The position numbers and the translations under genes were made by a program. From Pseudoalteromonas sp. 3D05 (GTDB lineage Bacteria; Pseudomonadota; Gammaproteobacteria; Enterobacterales; Alteromonadaceae): a DNA stretch of 64,000 bases. Where the stretch lies: positions 64,463 to 128,462 of the forward strand of contig NZ_PDUS01000009.1 of the NCBI RefSeq assembly GCF_002723455.1, in the 5' to 3' direction. This document shows, piece by piece, positions 54,661 to 63,644 of this stretch. Numbering within the stretch: the stretch's first letter is position 1; every line of letters begins with the position of its first letter. The notes under the pieces were generated by a model, which saw nothing but the letters and a program-made list of their open reading frames with translations, was not told where the DNA came from and did not search any database.

Positions 54661-55371
54661 TTAAGGAGCCCAGTAAACTTCTATATTTATCGTTGGGTGA
54701 TTAAGAACTGCTCGAAGTGGCATATCGTCAACGTCTCCGCCTGCTTTTGCAGCTTTGTAAACAGCTAACTTTTCTTCACCACTGATAAGTAACTTAACAA
54801 CTTTAGACTGCGCAATAGCAGACAAGGTTAAAGTCATTCGTTCAGTAATAGTTCCTGTTACATCACTTTCAATCGCATTAATTGCACAAACCAATTGCGA
54901 AGTTGTTAAGCCATGCTCAAGGCCTTGTGCGTGTGGAAACAATGACGCAGTATGACCATCTGGCCCCATGCCTAAAATTGTCACATCAAAAGCTTGCTTT
55001 AATTGCTGATAAGCCTTTTCGCACTCTTTACTGCCCTGCTCTGCAGTTTCTGCTGCGTTTTTCATAGTGATAAAGTTTGCAGCCGCACCATGGTTTTGTA
55101 ACAACGTGCTTTTGATAAACGCTTCGTTACTTTTCTCGTGCTCAACATCTACCCAGCGCTCATCAACCATAGCCACATCGATGTTGTCCCAGTCAAGTTC
55201 AAGGTTTGACAGATGCTTATATGCAGGTGCCGGCGATGAACCACCAGATACCAGTAATACAGCACGTCCGTCATTCTTGATACCCGAAACCAAGCTTTGC
55301 TCAAGACTAGCTGATAATTCAGCAGTAAGCGCTTCTTTTGAATCAAAAAACTTCTCAGTAATATGTGCCAT
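54661..55371 (-). CDS. pgl: 6-phosphogluconolactonase
   Basis: A 236-residue DevB-type lactonase hydrolysing 6-phosphoglucono-delta-lactone in the oxidative pentose-phosphate/Entner-Doudoroff entry. Signatures are VLLVSGGSSPAPAYKHLS, VAMVDERWVD and VTILGMGPDGHTASLFP. Its ATG follows the zwf stop by 2 nt, with AAGGGA at the end of zwf as Shine-Dalgarno, so the two are tightly coupled. Confidence 0.95.
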   Translation of the reverse strand: MAHITEKFFDSKEALTAELSASLEQSLVSGIKNDGRAVLLVSGGSSPAPAYKHLSNLELDWDNIDVAMVDERWVDVEHEKSNEAFIKSTLLQNHGAAANFITMKNAAETAEQGSKECEKAYQQLKQAFDVTILGMGPDGHTASLFPHAQGLEHGLTTSQLVCAINAIESDVTGTITERMTLTLSAIAQSKVVKLLISGEEKLAVYKAAKAGGDVDDMPLRAVLNHPTINIEVYWAP

Positions 55372-55373
55372 GC

Positions 55374-56846
55374 TTATCCCTTTTCGCCAGTGTTAAACCA
55401 TACATGATTTTTTTCAGCAAGAAGATCATCCGCATCTTCTGGGCCCCAGCTACCAGCACGATACAATGCAGGTTTACCTTTTTCTTGCCAGCGCTTAATG
55501 ATTGGATCAATCCATTTCCATGCTTGCCTTACTTCATCACGATGTATAAATAGTGACGGATTATTTGCCGCTGCATCTAGCATTAAGCGCTTGTAAGCAT
55601 CAGAATGAAAACCATTACTATAAGCCTCTGATAACTCAATATTCATAGTGACGGGTTCTAATTGCATTTCAAGATTATCAAGACGTTTTGACATCAAAGT
55701 AAGCTGGATGGTTTCTTCCGGTTGCAAACGGATCACAAGGCGATTTGGTTCTATTTTACCTACATTATCACCGTAAACATTGTGCGATACTTTTTTGTAC
55801 TCAACAACAATCTCAGCACAGCGTTTGGCCATGCGCTTACCGGTACGTAAATAAAATGGAACACCCGCCCAGCGCCAGTTATCAATATGAGCACGAATAG
55901 CGACAAATGTTTCTGTTTTGCTGGCGCCTTCGTTCAACTCTTCTAAGTATCCTGGGACAATTTTACCGTCTAAATCACCTGGTACATATTGACCACGTAT
56001 AATATTGTCATCAACATCGCCATCGACCAATGGACGTAAAGATTCCAACACTTTTAATTTTTCAGTGCGAATACTATTGGCATTTAACTTATTAGGCGAC
56101 TCCATTGCAACAAGGCAAAGTAGTTGCAATAGATGGTTTTGTACCATATCACGTAATGCACCGGCTTTATCGTAAAACCCTGCACGACTCTCAAGACCAA
56201 CCGTTTCTGATAAGCTAATTTGAATGTTATCAATCGATTTAGCATCCCACATATTTTCAAACAATGAGTTTGAAAAACGCAGTGCCATTAAATTTTGAAC
56301 TGTTTCTTTACCTAAATAATGATCGATACGGAATATTTGATCTTCTGTAAAGTACTCAGCAATTTTTGCATTGATTTCTTCTGCTGACTGGCCACAGTAA
56401 CCAATAGGTTTTTCAACCACTACACGAGATGTCGGGGTGATCAGACCTTTGACAGACAATATTTCACAGCAACTACCGTAAACAGCAGGTGGTAATGACA
56501 AGTAGAAAACACGTGATTTTTCTGATGAATCTCGATCGAGAATATCTTTTAATGTATCCCAGTCGCTATCCGCTTCGGTTACATTGGTAACAACCGGAAC
56601 TAAAAAAGCAGAAAATGCTTTCCAATCTTTGCTGTTAAACTCACCTTTACTAAGAAACTGTTTTAACGCTTCATGCGCGGTTTCGATGTATTCTGCACGT
56701 TTACTTTCTTCTCGAACGGTCGGCAATATACGCGAACCTTCTGGTAGATTCCCTTCTTGATATGCGCGATACATTGCTGGAAGTAATTTGCGTAAAGCAA
56801 GATCACCACCGCCCCCAAAAATAACAATATCAAAAGGATTTAGCAT
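55374..56846 (-). CDS. zwf: Glucose-6-phosphate 1-dehydrogenase
   Basis: A 490-residue enzyme (E. coli Zwf 491) oxidising glucose-6-phosphate to the lactone with NADP. The nucleotide-binding motif is FGGGGDLALRKLLPA, and the substrate/catalytic block is FRIDHYLGKE. The C-terminal region with the tetramer-forming domain is complete. It lies second in the pgi-zwf-pgl order. The 259-bp gap from pgi holds only an imperfect hairpin (CTTAGGG with CCCTAAG, about 56990-57032). Confidence 0.96.
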   Translation of the reverse strand: MLNPFDIVIFGGGGDLALRKLLPAMYRAYQEGNLPEGSRILPTVREESKRAEYIETAHEALKQFLSKGEFNSKDWKAFSAFLVPVVTNVTEADSDWDTLKDILDRDSSEKSRVFYLSLPPAVYGSCCEILSVKGLITPTSRVVVEKPIGYCGQSAEEINAKIAEYFTEDQIFRIDHYLGKETVQNLMALRFSNSLFENMWDAKSIDNIQISLSETVGLESRAGFYDKAGALRDMVQNHLLQLLCLVAMESPNKLNANSIRTEKLKVLESLRPLVDGDVDDNIIRGQYVPGDLDGKIVPGYLEELNEGASKTETFVAIRAHIDNWRWAGVPFYLRTGKRMAKRCAEIVVEYKKVSHNVYGDNVGKIEPNRLVIRLQPEETIQLTLMSKRLDNLEMQLEPVTMNIELSEAYSNGFHSDAYKRLMLDAAANNPSLFIHRDEVRQAWKWIDPIIKRWQEKGKPALYRAGSWGPEDADDLLAEKNHVWFNTGEKG

Positions 56847-57105
56847 AATTAACTCTCTACGTTAGCATTGCCCAGTTGTCGACTGCTTTTATTGCAGTTC
56901 AGGCATACGTTTGTTGTTTAAAGTGATGTCAGCTTTTCGCATCGAGAAAAAGCCTGTTGAATTCGATTTATACGGCTGATTAAATGAGCCTTAGGGGCTC
57001 TGCATATCCTCTCACAAATATACAGGCCCTAAGAACTCCAGCGCTACCCGTTCAAAGGTATTTGGTTTGCAATAAGCATTTAACTAATGCCAATCGCTAA
57101 ATTTG

Positions 57106-58749
57106 TTAAGCGCGGTGCGCTTTGTAGTAGTTCATTAAGCCTTGAGTTGAACTATCGTGGGTATGTTTAACTGTTTCATCAAGTAATTCAGCTTCTATTT
57201 TAGACGCTAACCCTTTACCTAACTCAACTCCCCATTGGTCAAAAGAGCATATTTCTAAAATAATACCTTGGCAAAATATTTTATGCTCGTACAGTGCAAT
57301 TAAACGCCCGACTGCTTTTGCATCAACTACATCCAAAAGAATAGAAGTAGTCGGTCTGTTACCTTTGTGTATTTTATGATTTAACAGCGTTTCAATTTCA
57401 CTCTCAGATTTACCTTTAGCCGTTAAATCTGCGCGTACTTGGTTTTCATCAACACCCATCATCATTGCTTCTGTTTGAGCAAAAAAGTTGGATAGTAATA
57501 TATCGTGGTGTTGTCCAACACTTACCTGCGGCTTAACTGAGGCTATAAAATCGGCAGGCACAATCACGTTACCTTGATGCAAACATTGGTAAAAAGCATG
57601 TTGGCCGTTAATGCCCGTCATTCCCCAAATAATAGGAACCGTCGTATAATTAACAGTTTCACCAGCAAAATTGACGTGTTTACCATTACTTTCCATTTCA
57701 CCTTGCTGTAAATAAGCCGGTAACATGTGCAATGCTTGATCATATGGCAATATAGCTTGCGCATCATAACCAAGAAAACTCGTATTCCACACGCTCAATA
57801 GTGCCATCAATAGCGGGATATTTTTATCATTGGGCGCTGATTTAAAATGCTCATCTACTTCAAACGCACCTGCAAGTATATCTTCAAATGCTTCAAACCC
57901 TAGGTAAAGCGCTATAGGTAATCCTATCGCACTCCATAATGAAAAACGACCGCCTACCCAATCCCACATTGTGAATACGTTTTCATTTGCAATACCAAAA
58001 GCTGCCGTTTTTTCTAAATTAGTGCTCACAGCCACAAAGTGTTTGGCGATTGATTTTTCATCATGAGCTGAATTCAAAAACCAATCAACAGCGGTTTTAG
58101 CATTCGTCATTGTTTCTGATGTAGTAAATGTTTTAGAAGAAATAACAAACAACGTTGTTTCAGGATCAATCTGTTTTAACACCGATGATATCTGAACACC
58201 GTCAGCATTCGATACATAATGAACATTAAGTGTATCGTCTGCATAACTTTTAAGTGCTTCAGTAGCCATTTGTGGCCCTAGATTTGAACCACCTACTCCA
58301 ATACTTACTACAGACTTTACAGGTTTACCTGTATAGCCTAGCCATTCACCTGAACGTACTTTCGCTACAAACTCTTTAATCTTTCCAAGTTCGGCGTTCA
58401 CAACATTACTAACATTTTCACCATCAACAACTAGGTCGCTGGAATGTCTATTGCGCAAAGCAGTATGCAGTACAGCTCTGTTTTCTGTGAAATTAATTTT
58501 TTCACCTGAAAACATTTTATCGCGCCAAGCAGCAACATCACAATCGTCGGCAAGCTTTAGTAATTGGTTTAGTACTTTTTCATCAATAAGTTGCTTAGAG
58601 TAATCAAATAATATGCCTGGGGTTTGAGTCGAGAAAAGCTCGAATCGACTGCTATTATTGGCAAATAGATCTTTAAGGTGAACTTCTTTCATCTTATCAG
58701 CACTAATATTCAGTGCTTGCCAACTAGCCAGTTGTGAACGACAACTCAT
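57106..58749 (-). CDS. pgi: Glucose-6-phosphate isomerase
   Basis: A 547-residue enzyme (E. coli Pgi 549) interconverting glucose-6-P and fructose-6-P. Motifs: SIGVGGSNLGPQMATEAL, VISSKTFTTSETMTNA, VGGRFSLWSAIGLPIAL and FDQWGVELGKGLA. It is first of the leftward pgi-zwf-pgl set, unusual in that pgi is placed with the oxidative branch. Its promoter carries the LacI-type operator over the -35 box. Confidence 0.97.
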   Translation of the reverse strand: MSCRSQLASWQALNISADKMKEVHLKDLFANNSSRFELFSTQTPGILFDYSKQLIDEKVLNQLLKLADDCDVAAWRDKMFSGEKINFTENRAVLHTALRNRHSSDLVVDGENVSNVVNAELGKIKEFVAKVRSGEWLGYTGKPVKSVVSIGVGGSNLGPQMATEALKSYADDTLNVHYVSNADGVQISSVLKQIDPETTLFVISSKTFTTSETMTNAKTAVDWFLNSAHDEKSIAKHFVAVSTNLEKTAAFGIANENVFTMWDWVGGRFSLWSAIGLPIALYLGFEAFEDILAGAFEVDEHFKSAPNDKNIPLLMALLSVWNTSFLGYDAQAILPYDQALHMLPAYLQQGEMESNGKHVNFAGETVNYTTVPIIWGMTGINGQHAFYQCLHQGNVIVPADFIASVKPQVSVGQHHDILLSNFFAQTEAMMMGVDENQVRADLTAKGKSESEIETLLNHKIHKGNRPTTSILLDVVDAKAVGRLIALYEHKIFCQGIILEICSFDQWGVELGKGLASKIEAELLDETVKHTHDSSTQGLMNYYKAHRA

Positions 58750-59101: not shown

Positions 59102-60130
59102 ATGAAAGTAACCATAAATGATGTAGCTAAGCTTGCTGGCGTTTCAATGAAAACGGTTTCGCGAGTGATAAACAAAGAGCCTTCCGTACGTAAAAAAACC
59201 TTTGATGTGGTTATGGAAGCAGTAAACGAACTAAATTATCAACCGAACCTTGCTGCTCGTAATCTAGCTGGAACGTCTTCATTCACTATTGGATTAGTCT
59301 ATGATAATCCCAATGCTTATTATGTAATCGATATGCAAAACGGTGTGCTCTCGCGTTGCAAAGATGAAGGCTATGAACTCGTAATTCATCCATGCAGTTA
59401 TTCTGAAGCGAATATGGAGCATGATTTTAAAACAATGATCAAGCGCTCTAGGCTTGCAGGTTTAGTGTTAACCCCTCCTCTATCCGAGCAAAGCAGCATT
59501 ACTAATTTATTAGATGAATTAAACATCCATTATGTTCGTGTTTTATCTGGTCGCCCAAATGAAGAGGACCAAGATACCTGTATTTATGTTAACGATTTTA
59601 AAGCCGCCTATGAGATAACAACCCACCTGCTAAAGCATGGCCACAAAAACATTGGATTTATCTGCGGTGATAAAGAACATAAATCGACAAGTGAACGATT
59701 AGAAGGTTATAAAGCCGCGCTGGCAGATCATAATACTCAAACGAATGATGCGTTTATTTATGATGGTAAATATTCATTCGAATCAGGTGTTGAAGGTGCA
59801 CAAGCGTTACTAGCTGATGACAATAAATTAGCTATCACTGCTATTTTAGGCGGTAACGATGAAATGGCCGCGGGTGCGCTTTTCGCCTCGCGTTTAATGG
59901 GAATAAAAATACCCGAACAGCTCTCAATTACTGGTTTCGAGAATTCTCCTTTCTCACGCCAAACATGGCCTAAACTGACAACTGCACATCAAGAAAACGA
60001 TGTAATCTCTCAACATGCTGCACGTTTGTTATTTACCAAAACAAGAGGGGCTAGAAATCAAGATAAAGATATTATCACTTCATTTACTCCTTCAATTGTC
60101 GTAAGAGATAGTTCAGGACCAAAATTGTAA
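59102..60130 (+). CDS. LacI-family transcriptional repressor
   Basis: A 342-residue regulator. The headpiece is TINDVAKLAGVSMKTVSRVI followed by the hinge helix YQPNLAARNLAG. The periplasmic-binding-like effector domain ends with SITGFENSPFSRQTWPKLTT. It is divergent from pgi-zwf-pgl and close to receptor 3, both carrying the TGACARCGYTGTCA palindrome, so it is the best candidate for the repressor of this sugar regulon (inference). The effector is probably a sugar or sugar phosphate. Confidence 0.93.
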   Translation: MKVTINDVAKLAGVSMKTVSRVINKEPSVRKKTFDVVMEAVNELNYQPNLAARNLAGTSSFTIGLVYDNPNAYYVIDMQNGVLSRCKDEGYELVIHPCSYSEANMEHDFKTMIKRSRLAGLVLTPPLSEQSSITNLLDELNIHYVRVLSGRPNEEDQDTCIYVNDFKAAYEITTHLLKHGHKNIGFICGDKEHKSTSERLEGYKAALADHNTQTNDAFIYDGKYSFESGVEGAQALLADDNKLAITAILGGNDEMAAGALFASRLMGIKIPEQLSITGFENSPFSRQTWPKLTTAHQENDVISQHAARLLFTKTRGARNQDKDIITSFTPSIVVRDSSGPKL

Positions 60131-60140
60131 GCAAAGCAAG

Positions 60141-60162
60141 AAGGCGCTCATGTTAGCGCCTT
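60141..60162. terminator. Intrinsic terminator after the LacI-type gene
   Basis: AAGGCGCT, CATGTT, AGCGCCTT and then TATTATTG. It is placed between this gene and the convergent fusion gene, 11 nt after the stop. Confidence 0.78.
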
Positions 60163-60187: not shown

Positions 60188-62443
60188 CTAAAGTAATGCC
60201 AACCCACCTTTCAGATTGTAAACACATTCAAAACCAATATGTACTAGGTTATTAGCAGCTTGTTTTGAGCGATTACCACTGCGGCATAATAAAATGTAAC
60301 GCTGTGTCTTCTCTAACTTCCCAGAAACTAAAGCATAGGCCATTCGACTTAGTGGTATATTAATCACTTGCCCTTTCTTCAAATTAAATACTTTATTTAA
60401 ATCATATGCATCATGTTCGTATGGTTCTCTGGTGTCTATCAAGCATGTATTACTCTCTATCAGCATCGATTTTGCCTCAGTTAGATCAACCTGCATTAAG
60501 GCAGGTTCGTCAAACGTCGCAGCAAATCCACATAAGCTCGCCGACTGAGTAATTGTGCAAGCGTCATTCTCTTGTTTAGTTTTAACAAATTCAGCATCCG
60601 ACATTGCACCCGACAACAATTCACTTAGCAATGGGGTTTGTTGAATTTGTGCATGCCAATTGATAGCAAAACACTGTTGGTAATCGTGGCCGGAGCAAAT
60701 CATCGTGTCATTTTGCACGATTTGATTTAGCTGACGCAACGAATTGACCATTTCATCTGCATCTCCCCCTGCTAATAAGGTATTTCCAAGCCCCGCAGGC
60801 AGAAGTAAATCTCCACAGAAACAGTATAAAACTCGGCCTGACTTTTTGCTTCTTATTAGATAACTCATACTATCTTTACTATGGCCTGGGGTTTTTATGC
60901 GCTCCAGATTAATATGCATCAAATCAAGTATATCTTCGTGTTCAGGCCAGCCTAATTCATCCGTTTTAATATCACTTAAAGCAGTGGAGAAAGCACTTTC
61001 ATAAAGTGGTCTTGCAGAAATACGGTCTTGGTGATCATGAGTATCCAAAATAGCCATTATCTTTAATGATTGCGTGTTAACTATTTTTTCAAGTCGAGGA
61101 AGCATTTCAGCAATGGGATCGATAAGAATAGCCTCTTTATTTTCACTTACATAAAGCCAACTACAGGCACCTTGATGCCTATACTGAGTTAACCCTAAAG
61201 CACATGTTTCTTGTTGAGGCGACAATGCATCAGATACAACTAAACAGTTGGCTTGTAAAATAGGCTTTAACGCGCGAATTCGCTCACATGCCAAATCAAC
61301 TTCTAAAGCTGACATGGCAGGGCCAAATGATAAACGTAAAGCATTTTCACTTTGCCAATCTGATGCCCCCATAGCATCAAGTACAAAGCTTCTATTTGCG
61401 CCAGAACTACACGCTGAGCCTCCACTTATACGTATACCTGCCGCATCGAATAAATCCATCACCTCTTTGCTACTTAACTCATCCACAGAAAAGTTCAGTG
61501 TTGTCGGCACACTGTTGTCAAACCGATGATTAAACGTGATTTTTCCAAATGTATGTGTCAAGGCAGCATATAATTTATCGCGGTACTCGTTCAGTACGCT
61601 TATAGGTTTGAACGTCGTATCCGTTTCATCCAGCAACAAACTAAACAGTTTATTTAATCCCGCTATTCCGGGTAAGTTTTCTGTCCCTGAGCGCATACCA
61701 CTTTCTTGCCCACCTCCAGCAATAAATGGAGTGTATTCACGCCCTTGACGAATATAAAGCATGCCAATCCCTTTTGGTGCATACAGTTTATGACCTGAAA
61801 ATGGCGCATAATCAATCGTTGTTTGGCTCAAAGCAAGGTGTGTCTTTCCAAGCGCTTGTACACAGTCAACCATCCAAACTACATCATTATTATTCGCTCG
61901 AATAGCCTTTTCAATAGCAGCTAAATCTTGATAAACACCGGTTTCATTATTAACGGCCATAGTACAAATCATTAAGGCGTTTTCGCTATGCTGTGAAATA
62001 AAGCCTAAATCAAGGGTTCCGTCATTTAACACTGGGATTGCCAACACATCTGCATGAATACCCAGAACTTTGTTCCAATGTATTAATGTGTTAGGTACTG
62101 CTTTGTGTTCGGTTGCACCATAGAGCAATACCGGCTTTTTAATTGAGTGGTCTTTAGCCGCAATTAGTGTTGACACTACAGCTGTTTGGATACCTTCTGT
62201 GGCTCCAGATGTGAATAATATATCACCGCATTGCGCCCCGATCACTGTTCGCGCTTGTGCCCGTGTTTGTTCTAATAAATGTTTTGCCTGAATACCGGTT
62301 ATGTGTGAAGAAGACGGATTACCAAAACAAGTTTGCATGGTGTGCAAAACAACATCAGCAATACAGGGTAAAACGGGAGTAGTTGCATTTGCATCGAGAT
62401 AAATTTGTGCGGTTAGATCTGCACAAGGGACATGTTCGGACAT
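60188..62443 (-). CDS. Cysteine desulfurase - persulfide-dioxygenase-like - rhodanese fusion
   Basis: A 751-residue three-domain protein. Residues ~14-395 are an IscS/NifS-type class V aminotransferase (H113 PLP stacking, K219 in FSGHK, C345 in GGSACSSG). Residues ~415-610 are an ETHE1/GlxII-like MBL domain: H469, H521 and D545 are at the mononuclear Fe-ligand positions, but the HxHxDH motif reads HDHQDR, so the last second-site His is Arg. Residues ~655-751 are a rhodanese with C720 in LLCRSGNRS. Together these could make persulfide from cysteine, oxidise it, and shuttle sulfane sulfur (inference). A paired inverted repeat lies in its promoter region. Confidence 0.9.
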   Translation of the reverse strand: MSEHVPCADLTAQIYLDANATTPVLPCIADVVLHTMQTCFGNPSSSHITGIQAKHLLEQTRAQARTVIGAQCGDILFTSGATEGIQTAVVSTLIAAKDHSIKKPVLLYGATEHKAVPNTLIHWNKVLGIHADVLAIPVLNDGTLDLGFISQHSENALMICTMAVNNETGVYQDLAAIEKAIRANNNDVVWMVDCVQALGKTHLALSQTTIDYAPFSGHKLYAPKGIGMLYIRQGREYTPFIAGGGQESGMRSGTENLPGIAGLNKLFSLLLDETDTTFKPISVLNEYRDKLYAALTHTFGKITFNHRFDNSVPTTLNFSVDELSSKEVMDLFDAAGIRISGGSACSSGANRSFVLDAMGASDWQSENALRLSFGPAMSALEVDLACERIRALKPILQANCLVVSDALSPQQETCALGLTQYRHQGACSWLYVSENKEAILIDPIAEMLPRLEKIVNTQSLKIMAILDTHDHQDRISARPLYESAFSTALSDIKTDELGWPEHEDILDLMHINLERIKTPGHSKDSMSYLIRSKKSGRVLYCFCGDLLLPAGLGNTLLAGGDADEMVNSLRQLNQIVQNDTMICSGHDYQQCFAINWHAQIQQTPLLSELLSGAMSDAEFVKTKQENDACTITQSASLCGFAATFDEPALMQVDLTEAKSMLIESNTCLIDTREPYEHDAYDLNKVFNLKKGQVINIPLSRMAYALVSGKLEKTQRYILLCRSGNRSKQAANNLVHIGFECVYNLKGGLALL

Positions 62444-62448
62444 TAAAA

Positions 62449-62539
62449 ACGCACCATATTACTAAAAGATATATCTTATAACACATTCTACATAAATTTT
62501 ATGGTCGGTGTAATAATCAATTCATCTCTATGGTGCGTT
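62449..62539. promoter_or_regulatory. Inverted repeats in the promoter region of the fusion gene
   Basis: AACGCACCATA (62449-62459) and TATGGTGCGTT (62529-62539) are a perfect 11-bp inverted repeat 69 bp apart. Between them is the perfect 12-bp palindrome AAGATATATCTT (62466-62477). A possible minus-strand promoter (TTACAC, 17 nt, TAGAAT) lies between the arms. One arm sits just before the fusion gene's ATG. Confidence 0.5.
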
Positions 62540-62567: not shown

Positions 62568-63644
62568 TCACCCCTGCGGCTCGGCTAGCTGCTCTTCTTG
62601 CTTGGTTGACCACGCATTGATAAGTGCTTTGACCAAAGAAGCTAGCGGAATGGCGAAAAACACCCCCCAAAACCCCCAAAGCCCACCAAAAAACAACACA
62701 GCAACAATGATGAAAACGGGGTTTAAATCTACCGCTTCTGAAAACAATAAAGGCACTAAAACATTCCCATCAAGCGCTTGAATAATGCCGTAAACGATGA
62801 GTATCGTCCAAAATTGCGTTTCTACACCAAACTGAAACAGTGCAACAGCAGCAACTGGAATAGTCACCAACGCAGCACCGACAAATGGAATTAGCACAGA
62901 AAAGCCAACTAATACCCCTAATAATGCAGCGTAACGTAAGTCTAAAATAGTAAAAGCAATAAAGGATACTGAACCCACTATCAAAATCTCAAACACTTTA
63001 CCGCGAATATAGTTCATGATTTGCTGATTCATTTCATGCCAAACTTGTAAAATTAGACGCCGTTGCTTAGGCACTAACTTCGCAACACTTTGCGTTAGTT
63101 CAAGCTTATCTTTTAGCATAAAAAAAACTAATAGAGGCACAAGGATCAAGTAGATCAACCACGCTGCGACATCTTTAAGCGACGTCAAAGATGCAGATAA
63201 AGCAATTTGACCAAACTCAATGACTTTACTTTCTACACTCATTACCACCGACTGCACTTGCTCAGCCGTTATCAAACTAGGGTACTGATCCGGTAAATGT
63301 AATAAAAAGTACTTCCCTTTTTCAATCATATGAGGTGATTCTTGAAGCAAGTTACTGGCTTGCTGCCAAAGCACTGGGCCCATTCCCACAATCAAAGTAA
63401 GCATTAACCCTGTAAAGGCTAACATAACAAAAATAGTTGCCGTGAATCGCCTTAATCCAAGCCGCTCTAAATGTGCAACGGGCCAATCAAGTAGATAAGC
63501 AATGACTAAAGCAACCAAAACAGGAACAATCAATGAACCAAAGAAGTAAAATAGCGCCATTAATGCGACTAATAAAAATAACAAAGTAACCGAGTGAGGG
63601 TCTGAAAATTTTCTTTCGTACCATGCTTTTACATATTCAAACAC
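62568..63644 (-). CDS. AI-2E/PerM-family membrane protein
   Basis: A 358-residue polytopic membrane protein with about eight hydrophobic segments. FGSLIVPVLVALVIAYLLDW near the start, a central soluble region, then GVLVGFSVLIPFVGAALVTI and DGNVLVPLLFSEAVDLNPV are characteristic of the AI-2E transporter/PerM family. Members export or exchange varied substrates; the role of PerM is not settled. The start is GTG 63644, overlapping the TusA-like stop by 8 nt, so the pair is coupled. Confidence 0.9.
   Translation of the reverse strand: MFEYVKAWYERKFSDPHSVTLLFLLVALMALFYFFGSLIVPVLVALVIAYLLDWPVAHLERLGLRRFTATIFVMLAFTGLMLTLIVGMGPVLWQQASNLLQESPHMIEKGKYFLLHLPDQYPSLITAEQVQSVVMSVESKVIEFGQIALSASLTSLKDVAAWLIYLILVPLLVFFMLKDKLELTQSVAKLVPKQRRLILQVWHEMNQQIMNYIRGKVFEILIVGSVSFIAFTILDLRYAALLGVLVGFSVLIPFVGAALVTIPVAAVALFQFGVETQFWTILIVYGIIQALDGNVLVPLLFSEAVDLNPVFIIVAVLFFGGLWGFWGVFFAIPLASLVKALINAWSTKQEEQLAEPQG

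Follow-up and report, generated by a model that had tools for sequence, protein, structure and literature searches.

What does a bacterial protein do when one chain carries a cysteine desulfurase (CD), a metallo-beta-lactamase (MBL) fold resembling persulfide dioxygenases (PDOs) and a rhodanese (Rhd)? Cysteine desulfurases and PDOs are mostly treated apart, as source and sink of sulfane sulfur, and a gene that places both in one chain lies in a 64,000-nucleotide stretch of DNA from Pseudoalteromonas sp. 3D05 (contig NZ_PDUS01000009.1, positions 64,463 to 128,462), referred to below as the window. The domains, their conserved residues and the predicted folds point, with moderate confidence, to a cysteine-fed persulfide relay joined to an ancestral module that would have converted glutathione persulfide (GSSH) to sulfite and is probably weak or re-tuned in the window protein.

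The three domains follow one another in a single reading frame (Table 1), while the plus strand across 60188-62443 is stop-rich and closed to translation. Pfam recognises Aminotran_5 at residues 14-383 of the 751-amino-acid protein (2.2e-53) as well as the C-terminal rhodanese, and Lactamase_B matches residues 492-570 at 0.003, below Pfam's own cut-off. NCBIfam returns NifS (1.9e-79), IscS (1e-64), GloB (1e-19) and the Blh dioxygenase (1.4e-8), all below their curated cut-offs. For the whole chain, the AlphaFold2 model reaches a mean predicted local distance difference test score (pLDDT) of 85 and a predicted template modelling score (pTM) of 0.82, and residues 344-348 around C345 fall below a pLDDT of 50. 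Its best matches in the Protein Data Bank (PDB), found with Foldseek, are the NifS-like structure 1ecx and IscS, with desulfurases and selenocysteine lyases among the matches listed. Because this search was dominated by desulfurase-type matches, the C-terminal half was modelled apart, which gave a pLDDT of 89.5 and a pTM of 0.88. Judged from profiles and models, that half is a PDO-rhodanese pair placed behind a cysteine desulfurase. A first-pass annotation of the window had proposed exactly this order of domains in a single polypeptide and had named K219, C345, H469, H521, D545 and C720 as active-site residues; the layout is borne out by the frame, the family matches and the relatives, and all six residues lie where they had been placed. 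The closest named relative, from Pseudoalteromonas sp. H105, is 85% identical.

The two outer domains are the constant part of the family. Including the window's own, 166 distinct proteins were collected in three rounds (129 + 26 + 11), and the desulfurase set H113, D193, Q196, S216, H218, K219 and C345 is conserved in every one of them. The window protein thus has the class V aminotransferase domain with its pyridoxal phosphate (PLP) lysine, PLP contacts and loop cysteine, and by sequence it is a relative of NifS and IscS that is neither NifS nor IscS itself. The rhodanese domain has the CRxGxR active-site loop of single-domain rhodaneses, and its cysteine is missing from one protein only, L172, which ends at a contig edge. 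An assembly error joining separate genes, the objection that the first-pass annotation had raised against itself, is ruled out, as the same chain occurs in 166 distinct proteins with the desulfurase sites in all and the rhodanese cysteine in 165. The join of the three domains is genuine and ancient.

The central domain is a PDO relative by both profile and predicted fold. A profile of the C-terminal half, built from 35 sequences, matches the PDO-rhodanese fusion BpPRF (5ve3) at 6.2e-44, colinearly over the MBL and rhodanese domains, followed by MxPDO (1.1e-36), 8zbd and others, human ETHE1 (1.5e-29) and glyoxalase II (4.6e-17). The model of this half superposes on 4ysb, 2gcu, 8zbd and 4chl with Z-scores of 22.1-22.3 (199-208 residues aligned, root-mean-square deviation 2.5-2.8), on type II PDOs with 20.4-21.0 and on glyoxalases II with at most 18.9. 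The 2-His-1-Asp set of iron ligands is present as H469, H521 and D545, and the tyrosine that contacts glutathione (GSH), Y173 in the Acidithiobacillus caldus PDO (AcPDO) and Y197 in human ETHE1, corresponds to Y588. The surroundings of this site are altered. Where many relatives read THGHADH ... GRTNF, the window protein reads THDHQDR ... GNTLL, and the central arginine (AcPDO R139, human ETHE1 R163) is replaced by N554. As for the remaining GSH contacts of type I enzymes, the R190 column holds leucine by a count from the tyrosine, and the stretch around K212 aligns poorly.

These replacements bear directly on how the site is to be read. In the accessible text of PMC6060420, the mono-iron PDOs of types I and II retain T-H-x-H-A-D-H, type III has Phe or Tyr at the last histidine, and the central arginine is common to all three types; there, the AcPDO variants H62A and D61A are inactive, and R139A, D141A and H59A keep 0.4%, 1.5% and 6.6% of activity, respectively. 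The HDHQDR motif had been taken as fitting a mononuclear-iron sulfur dioxygenase, and this argument points the other way, because types I and II keep THxHADH and AcPDO loses activity in H62A and D61A. From the alignments, R474 is an alteration and no dioxygenase signature. The replacement of R139 and D141 by N554 and L556 had been missed. The claim that all three active sites are intact thus holds for the desulfurase, the rhodanese and the iron ligands, and fails in the second shell of the MBL site, where R474, N554 and L556 stand for His, Arg and Asp.

Sorting the 166 proteins by this site, in classes of our own definition, places the window protein among its relatives. Class A (78 proteins) has the iron ligands together with R139, D61 and H62; class B (24) has the ligands and R139, with D61 or H62 changed; class C (32, the window protein included) has the ligands without R139; and class D (32) has lost at least one ligand. 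The site is therefore near-canonical in 78 proteins and altered in another 56, and the remaining 32 lack iron ligands. Columns outside the definition are also kept in class A (H59 and H171 in 78/78, Y173 in 77/78, T56 in 75/78). Class C comprises the window protein, 30 other Pseudoalteromonas proteins and one from Shewanella (L098, with Gly at the R139 position). In it, residue 473 is Asp or Glu in all 32, Arg474 is found in 30 and Asn554 in 29, and T468, H471, H586 and Y588 are invariant. None of these four columns was used to define the class, and all belong to the 33 other invariant columns (of 223), for which a hand-calculated chance is about 4e-4; a hypergeometric value of 1.5e-6 for seven columns is partly circular, as three of them define the class. 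Such a pattern hardly resembles plain decay, and the acid-Arg pair that replaces the acid-His pair may represent a possible re-wiring.

Two versions of the fusion occur within Pseudoalteromonas itself, the window type with its altered site (L001, L005-L009) and a class A type (L015, L033, L104, L105, L110). In the tree, the latter group with copies from Shewanella, Paraglaciecola, Colwellia and Psychrobium-type genomes, which suggests exchange between genera. Three Pseudoalteromonas records from a plasmid collection (NZ_CP045419.1, NZ_CP074588.1 and NZ_CP022523.1) carry the fusion on replicons of 0.8-1.3 Mb; one of the three is annotated under the match, as 'aminotransferase class V-fold PLP-dependent enzyme' only.

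From the domains, residues, conservation and repeated loss of the iron site, together with the predicted folds, we infer the reactions, sulfur route, metal, ancestral state and change of activity as follows. The N-terminal PLP domain would convert cysteine to alanine and leave C345, on a mobile loop, carrying a persulfide; this persulfide would pass to C720 of the rhodanese domain and from there to a small thiol, most likely glutathione, or to protein cysteines. The ancestral central domain would have been a mono-iron PDO oxidising GSSH to sulfite, so that the ancestral chain would have turned cysteine and O2 into alanine and sulfite while keeping free persulfide low. The relay is placed at the core because CD and rhodanese are common to every member and a characterised CD-Rhd fusion moves cysteine sulfur; the PDO module would be a sink that makes sulfite in class A. 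Across the window protein and its 30 Pseudoalteromonas relatives, this module probably oxidises GSSH slowly or has been re-tuned to a different persulfide, such as one on its own cysteines, because the second-shell His and Arg are replaced (mostly Arg474 and Asn554, with no acid at 556) while the ligands and T468, H471, H586 and Y588 are kept.

The kept iron ligands, H586 and Y588, and a model that matches type I PDOs with Z-scores near 22, would also suit a fully active mono-iron GSSH dioxygenase, which would make the window protein a working cysteine-to-sulfite or cysteine-to-thiosulfate enzyme. Such an enzyme appears unlikely, since R474, N554 and L556 sit where the AcPDO alanine variants, in the same accessible text, show no activity, 0.4% and 1.5%, and the neighbouring P. 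rubra-type group of three proteins has lost the iron ligands. The channelling of cysteine sulfur to sulfite, as proposed in the first-pass annotation, is accordingly doubtful in the window protein with its N554 and L556, but plausible where relatives keep a near-canonical site. Other sulfur enzymes of the same genomes bear on this point. The window genome, of 4.47 Mb, encodes an IscS-like protein apart from the fusion (L002) and one more class V protein (L003). It also has a type II-like PDO that stands alone (L004, 284 amino acids, HAHADH motif intact), and with this second PDO the sink in the window organism may be weak or re-aimed. When type II PDOs were called at E <= 1e-40 to L004 in 92 fusion-bearing genomes of the order, they were present in 22/47 genomes of class A, 21/21 of class B, 3/6 of class C and 18/18 of class D (Fisher test of A against the rest, 8.6e-7), but a kinship-aware comparison leaves three supported independent pairs and no significance. 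The three class C genomes without one (G167, G186 and G098) also have no other PDO-like match below 1e-30, which favours an active module there. A profile run on 30 of the 92 genomes found that five of 28 seemingly PDO-free genomes, all of class A, carry a type I or PDO-Rhd-like gene; in one of the five, G635, the PDO-rhodanese-like gene (G635:C16:20300-21319) has two internal stops. The link between a stand-alone PDO and fusion class is thus usable as a hint only.

The opposite possibility is that the middle domain of the window protein is a dead linker or scaffold, drifting towards loss as in several other lineages. In a quickly built CD-domain tree (106 rows, some of them long), by parsimony that is blind to gain versus loss, the iron-ligand label changes six times on the best tree, four of them forced by well-supported branches, and the R139 label seven times. 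The changes are read as losses because regaining three ligands is unlikely. Ligand-less copies are found in the P. rubra group, which is nested beside the window's clade, in the genera g26/g28 and g11, in a subgroup of g30 and in f213, a separate family. The Lactamase_B match weakens in parallel, from 4e-9 and 2e-12 in two class A proteins to 9e-4 in one of class B and 0.003 in the window protein, with no match at 0.01 in four class D proteins. The domain is shrunken in g11 and f213 and gone in L212 of f213, a 542-amino-acid protein of CD and rhodanese alone whose catalytic cysteines are 142 residues apart. Across these sequences, the CD-Rhd pair is what is kept throughout the family. Another PDO is present in all 39 class B and D genomes examined in the window's order, which also favours dispensability.

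Selection does not separate a dead from a living domain. Ratios of nonsynonymous to synonymous substitution (dN/dS; Nei-Gojobori on 29 pairs, values given where dS is finite, with many dS values saturated) are 0.014-0.13 for CD, 0.024-0.20 for MBL and 0-0.17 for the rhodanese, the MBL part being looser than CD in most pairs, not all; between the window protein and its 85% relative they are 0.050, 0.121 and 0.113. The MBL part of a ligand-less P. rubra-type pair (0.052) is under purifying selection no weaker than that in class C (0.045-0.19), so that the constraint may be structural only. Since the ligand-less pair is equally constrained, dN/dS was dropped as proof of catalysis. What speaks against a dead linker is the conservation described above: seven catalytic columns are invariant in class C (three by definition), and Arg474 and Asn554 are held in a manner unlike drift. 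Moreover, three of the 11 f213 genomes (G1079, G1038 and G991), whose fused domain is dead, show no other PDO-like match at E <= 1e-14. A dead domain in the window protein is for these reasons doubtful, and a relay with a weakened or re-tuned module remains preferred.

Several observations nonetheless weigh against the preferred relay and its ancestral GSSH-to-sulfite module. The D141 position is Asn in 52 of the 78 class A proteins, so that 'canonical' is a label only, and the R190 contact of type I PDOs is Leu in 71 of them, in a column placed by hand count. The desulfurase falls far short of curated equivalog cut-offs (267 of 531 bits for NifS, 219 of 643 for IscS), and at such scores it may serve another route. 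Pfam detects no rhodanese in L142, one of the four class D proteins without a Lactamase_B match, although its cysteine loop exists. The stand-alone PDO of the window genome, the equal constraint on the ligand-less pair, the lack of a neighbour gene common to all genera among the loci compared, and the restriction of an adjoining TauE/SafE gene to five of the 100 loci searched count on the same side.

A broader scenario is offered tentatively. The ancestral CD-PDO-Rhd protein would have burned cysteine sulfur to sulfite, and its lineages would have kept the site, re-tuned it around a still-bound iron (the window clade, with Arg474 and Asn554) or lost the domain, leaving a CD-Rhd protein that persulfidates cysteines. 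The re-tuned window clade would perhaps oxidise persulfide on its own cysteines rather than GSSH. If this were true, the CD-Rhd fusion already characterised may be derived, having given away its built-in safety valve.

At E <= 1e-60, 71 of 196 genomes of the bacterial family gave a match, spread over 17 of 52 genera. At the level of the order, 25 of 197 genomes did so at E <= 1e-75; a class-wide draw of 369 genomes yielded one, the window's own. In a draw across the phylum (E <= 1e-52), 36 of 349 genomes had a match, nine of them with chains of at least 750 amino acids matched past the CD. The rest cover the CD alone or little more and were taken for plain desulfurases; frames of 466-580 amino acids in G830, G954, G754 and G952 could hide other fusions, and the one in G830 (L193) was examined. 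One of the nine, G991, belongs to f213, and a targeted draw there found the protein in 11 of 60 genomes; judged by GC content and its number of genera, f213 may be the Burkholderiaceae. Restriction to a single order, suggested by the class-wide scan, was dropped, as the fusion also occurs in f213. Named hosts among 80 loci include Pseudoalteromonas, Shewanella, Parashewanella, Colwellia, Thalassotalea, Thalassomonas, Rheinheimera, Alkalimonas, Paraglaciecola and Psychrobium, among others.

Table 1. Features of the fusion gene and its surroundings (window coordinates).
Feature	Position	Strand	Basis
CD-MBL (PDO-like)-rhodanese fusion gene, whole	60188..62443	minus	one open frame, 751 amino acids, ATG start, TAG stop; relatives
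Cysteine desulfurase domain (NifS/IscS type), residues ~13-395	61259..62407	minus	Pfam, NCBIfam NifS, Foldseek
MBL-fold PDO-like domain, residues ~415-640	60524..61201	minus	profile matches to PDOs; structural Z
Rhodanese domain, residues ~651-750	60194..60493	minus	Pfam 655-748, 1.1e-9
K219, PLP lysine (SGHKLYAPKG)	61787..61789	minus	kept in 166/166
C345, putative persulfide-forming cysteine, predicted mobile stretch 344-348 (pLDDT < 50)	61409..61411	minus	kept in 166/166
H469-D-H471-Q-D473-R474; H469 first iron ligand, R474 at last His of THxHADH	61022..61039	minus	alignment, literature
H521, second iron ligand	60881..60883	minus	alignments
D545, third iron ligand	60809..60811	minus	alignments
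N554-T-L556, at positions of PDO R139 and D141	60776..60784	minus	alignments, literature
H586-D587-Y588, retained equivalents of PDO H171 and GSH-contacting Y173	60680..60688	minus	alignments
C720, putative rhodanese persulfide cysteine, loop CRSGNRS	60284..60286	minus	kept in 165/166
Promoter-like site upstream of gene	62485..62514	minus	9 of 12 matches; such sites no commoner in region than in shuffles
Terminator-like hairpin downstream of gene	60141..60162	minus	

The gene neighbourhood varies between lineages. In the window, the fusion is flanked by two genes identified by eye, a PerM-like one (62568-63644) and one for a LacI-type regulator (59102-60130); the PerM-like gene lies upstream in 31 loci, all from the window's Pseudoalteromonas lineage. 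Near the LacI-type regulator, at 54661-58749, lookalikes of 6-phosphogluconolactonase, glucose-6-phosphate dehydrogenase and glucose-6-phosphate isomerase were recognised by eye, as in ordinary sugar metabolism. Rfam gave no match at gathering score within the window. Two baits from TauE/SafE, a sulfite-exporter family, were used to search 100 loci, of which 15 were shorter than 15 kb. Such a gene adjoins the fusion in five, all of class A and of two TauE types, which speaks for the ancestral sulfite-making module; it is divergent in L104, L105 and L146, whereas in L100 and L134 it shares the strand of the fusion and lies downstream. In two Psychrobium-type genomes, a regulator of the Lrp/AsnC family is divergent from the fusion (L107:7434-7799 and L111:2685-3053); some members of that family respond to cysteine. 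Seven Shewanella loci (L094, L095, L113, L114, L117, L119 and L126) have, at about 6.5-7.7 kb, DSP/BLH-phosphatase-like and YhcH/YiaL-family genes upstream on the same strand, the phosphatase-like protein having, by eye, a signal-peptide-like start.

In g26, g28 and g11 (L135-L142), the fusion follows nqrF and nqrM homologues in all eight loci with flanks and an apbE homologue in six (one at 26% identity), with a whole nqr operon recognised by eye in L135 and L142; the MBL domain of these fusions is dead or eroded. A link with Na+-NQR maturation is possible in these lineages. That the family is a dedicated sulfur donor for cofactor or iron-sulfur assembly, Na+-NQR for example, with the MBL part controlling overflow, would agree with these loci and with the CD-to-rhodanese relays that supply tRNA and molybdenum cofactor pathways (accessible text of PMC8931425), and is quite improbable given that the other 92 loci have no close nqrF, nqrM or apbE match (two weak nqrF-like matches, L121 and L130) and that the window genome has its separate IscS-like protein.

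A relay with a graded PDO module also has practical value. With source, carrier and sink in a single protein, which occurs in Pseudoalteromonas, Shewanella and other genera, the three can be titrated together, and its relatives with a near-canonical, altered, dead or deleted dioxygenase are ready controls for the second-shell residues that a PDO needs. The finding further sharpens the public label 'aminotransferase class V-fold PLP-dependent enzyme'.

Each part of the protein has known counterparts. With NifS and IscS it shares the whole domain, the PLP lysine and the cysteine loop (Foldseek TM-score 0.90 of the target for 1ecx), whereas its loop is one residue shorter than that of IscS (hand count against L193) and further domains follow at the C-terminus. 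With type I PDOs and ETHE1 (MxPDO 4ysb, human ETHE1 4chl, AcPDO) it shares the fold, the iron ligands and the equivalents of H171 and Y173, whereas those of H62, R139 and D141, and by hand count R190, are replaced. Blh, a bifunctional sulfur transferase/dioxygenase, likewise joins a sulfur transferase to a PDO; the match is weak (1.4e-8) and Blh has no CD. Its transferase type and domain order also differ from those of the CD-PDO-Rhd chain. The rhodanese-bearing type III PDO of Staphylococcus aureus has the MBL-PDO domain before the rhodanese, as in the window protein, without a CD. BpPRF (PDB 5ve3-5ve5) has the same order, is colinear with residues ~425-748 and has the three iron ligands; it lacks the desulfurase and retains THVHADH and GRTDF, which the window protein does not.

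A close counterpart to the proposed relay is the natural CD-Rhd fusion of Pseudorhodoferax sp. Leaf274, which, in the accessible text of Selles et al. 2022 (PMC8931425; also PMC12319549), has both activities, passes cysteine sulfur to roGFP2 and releases sulfide, as measured with dithiothreitol, GSH and mercaptoethanol. Both proteins place the CD before the rhodanese in one chain with both catalytic cysteines, and the cysteine-fed relay demonstrated there is proposed here; the Pseudorhodoferax protein has no PDO-like domain between, where the window protein has its MBL domain. The layout of L212 is that of the Pseudorhodoferax protein, with a cysteine spacing of 142 against 132 (C334 and C466; accessible text of PMC12319549). 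Descent of the latter from the CD-PDO-Rhd family is a guess. The desulfurase front end had been called unusual beside known PDO-Rhd fusions. No CD-PDO-Rhd fusion was found in the open-access library searched; subscription journals, InterPro and STRING lay outside this search, so that one may nonetheless be in print. Fusions of the CD-Rhd and PDO-Rhd kinds are already described, and the CD-PDO-Rhd protein, which is chemically sensible and built of familiar parts, combines the two.

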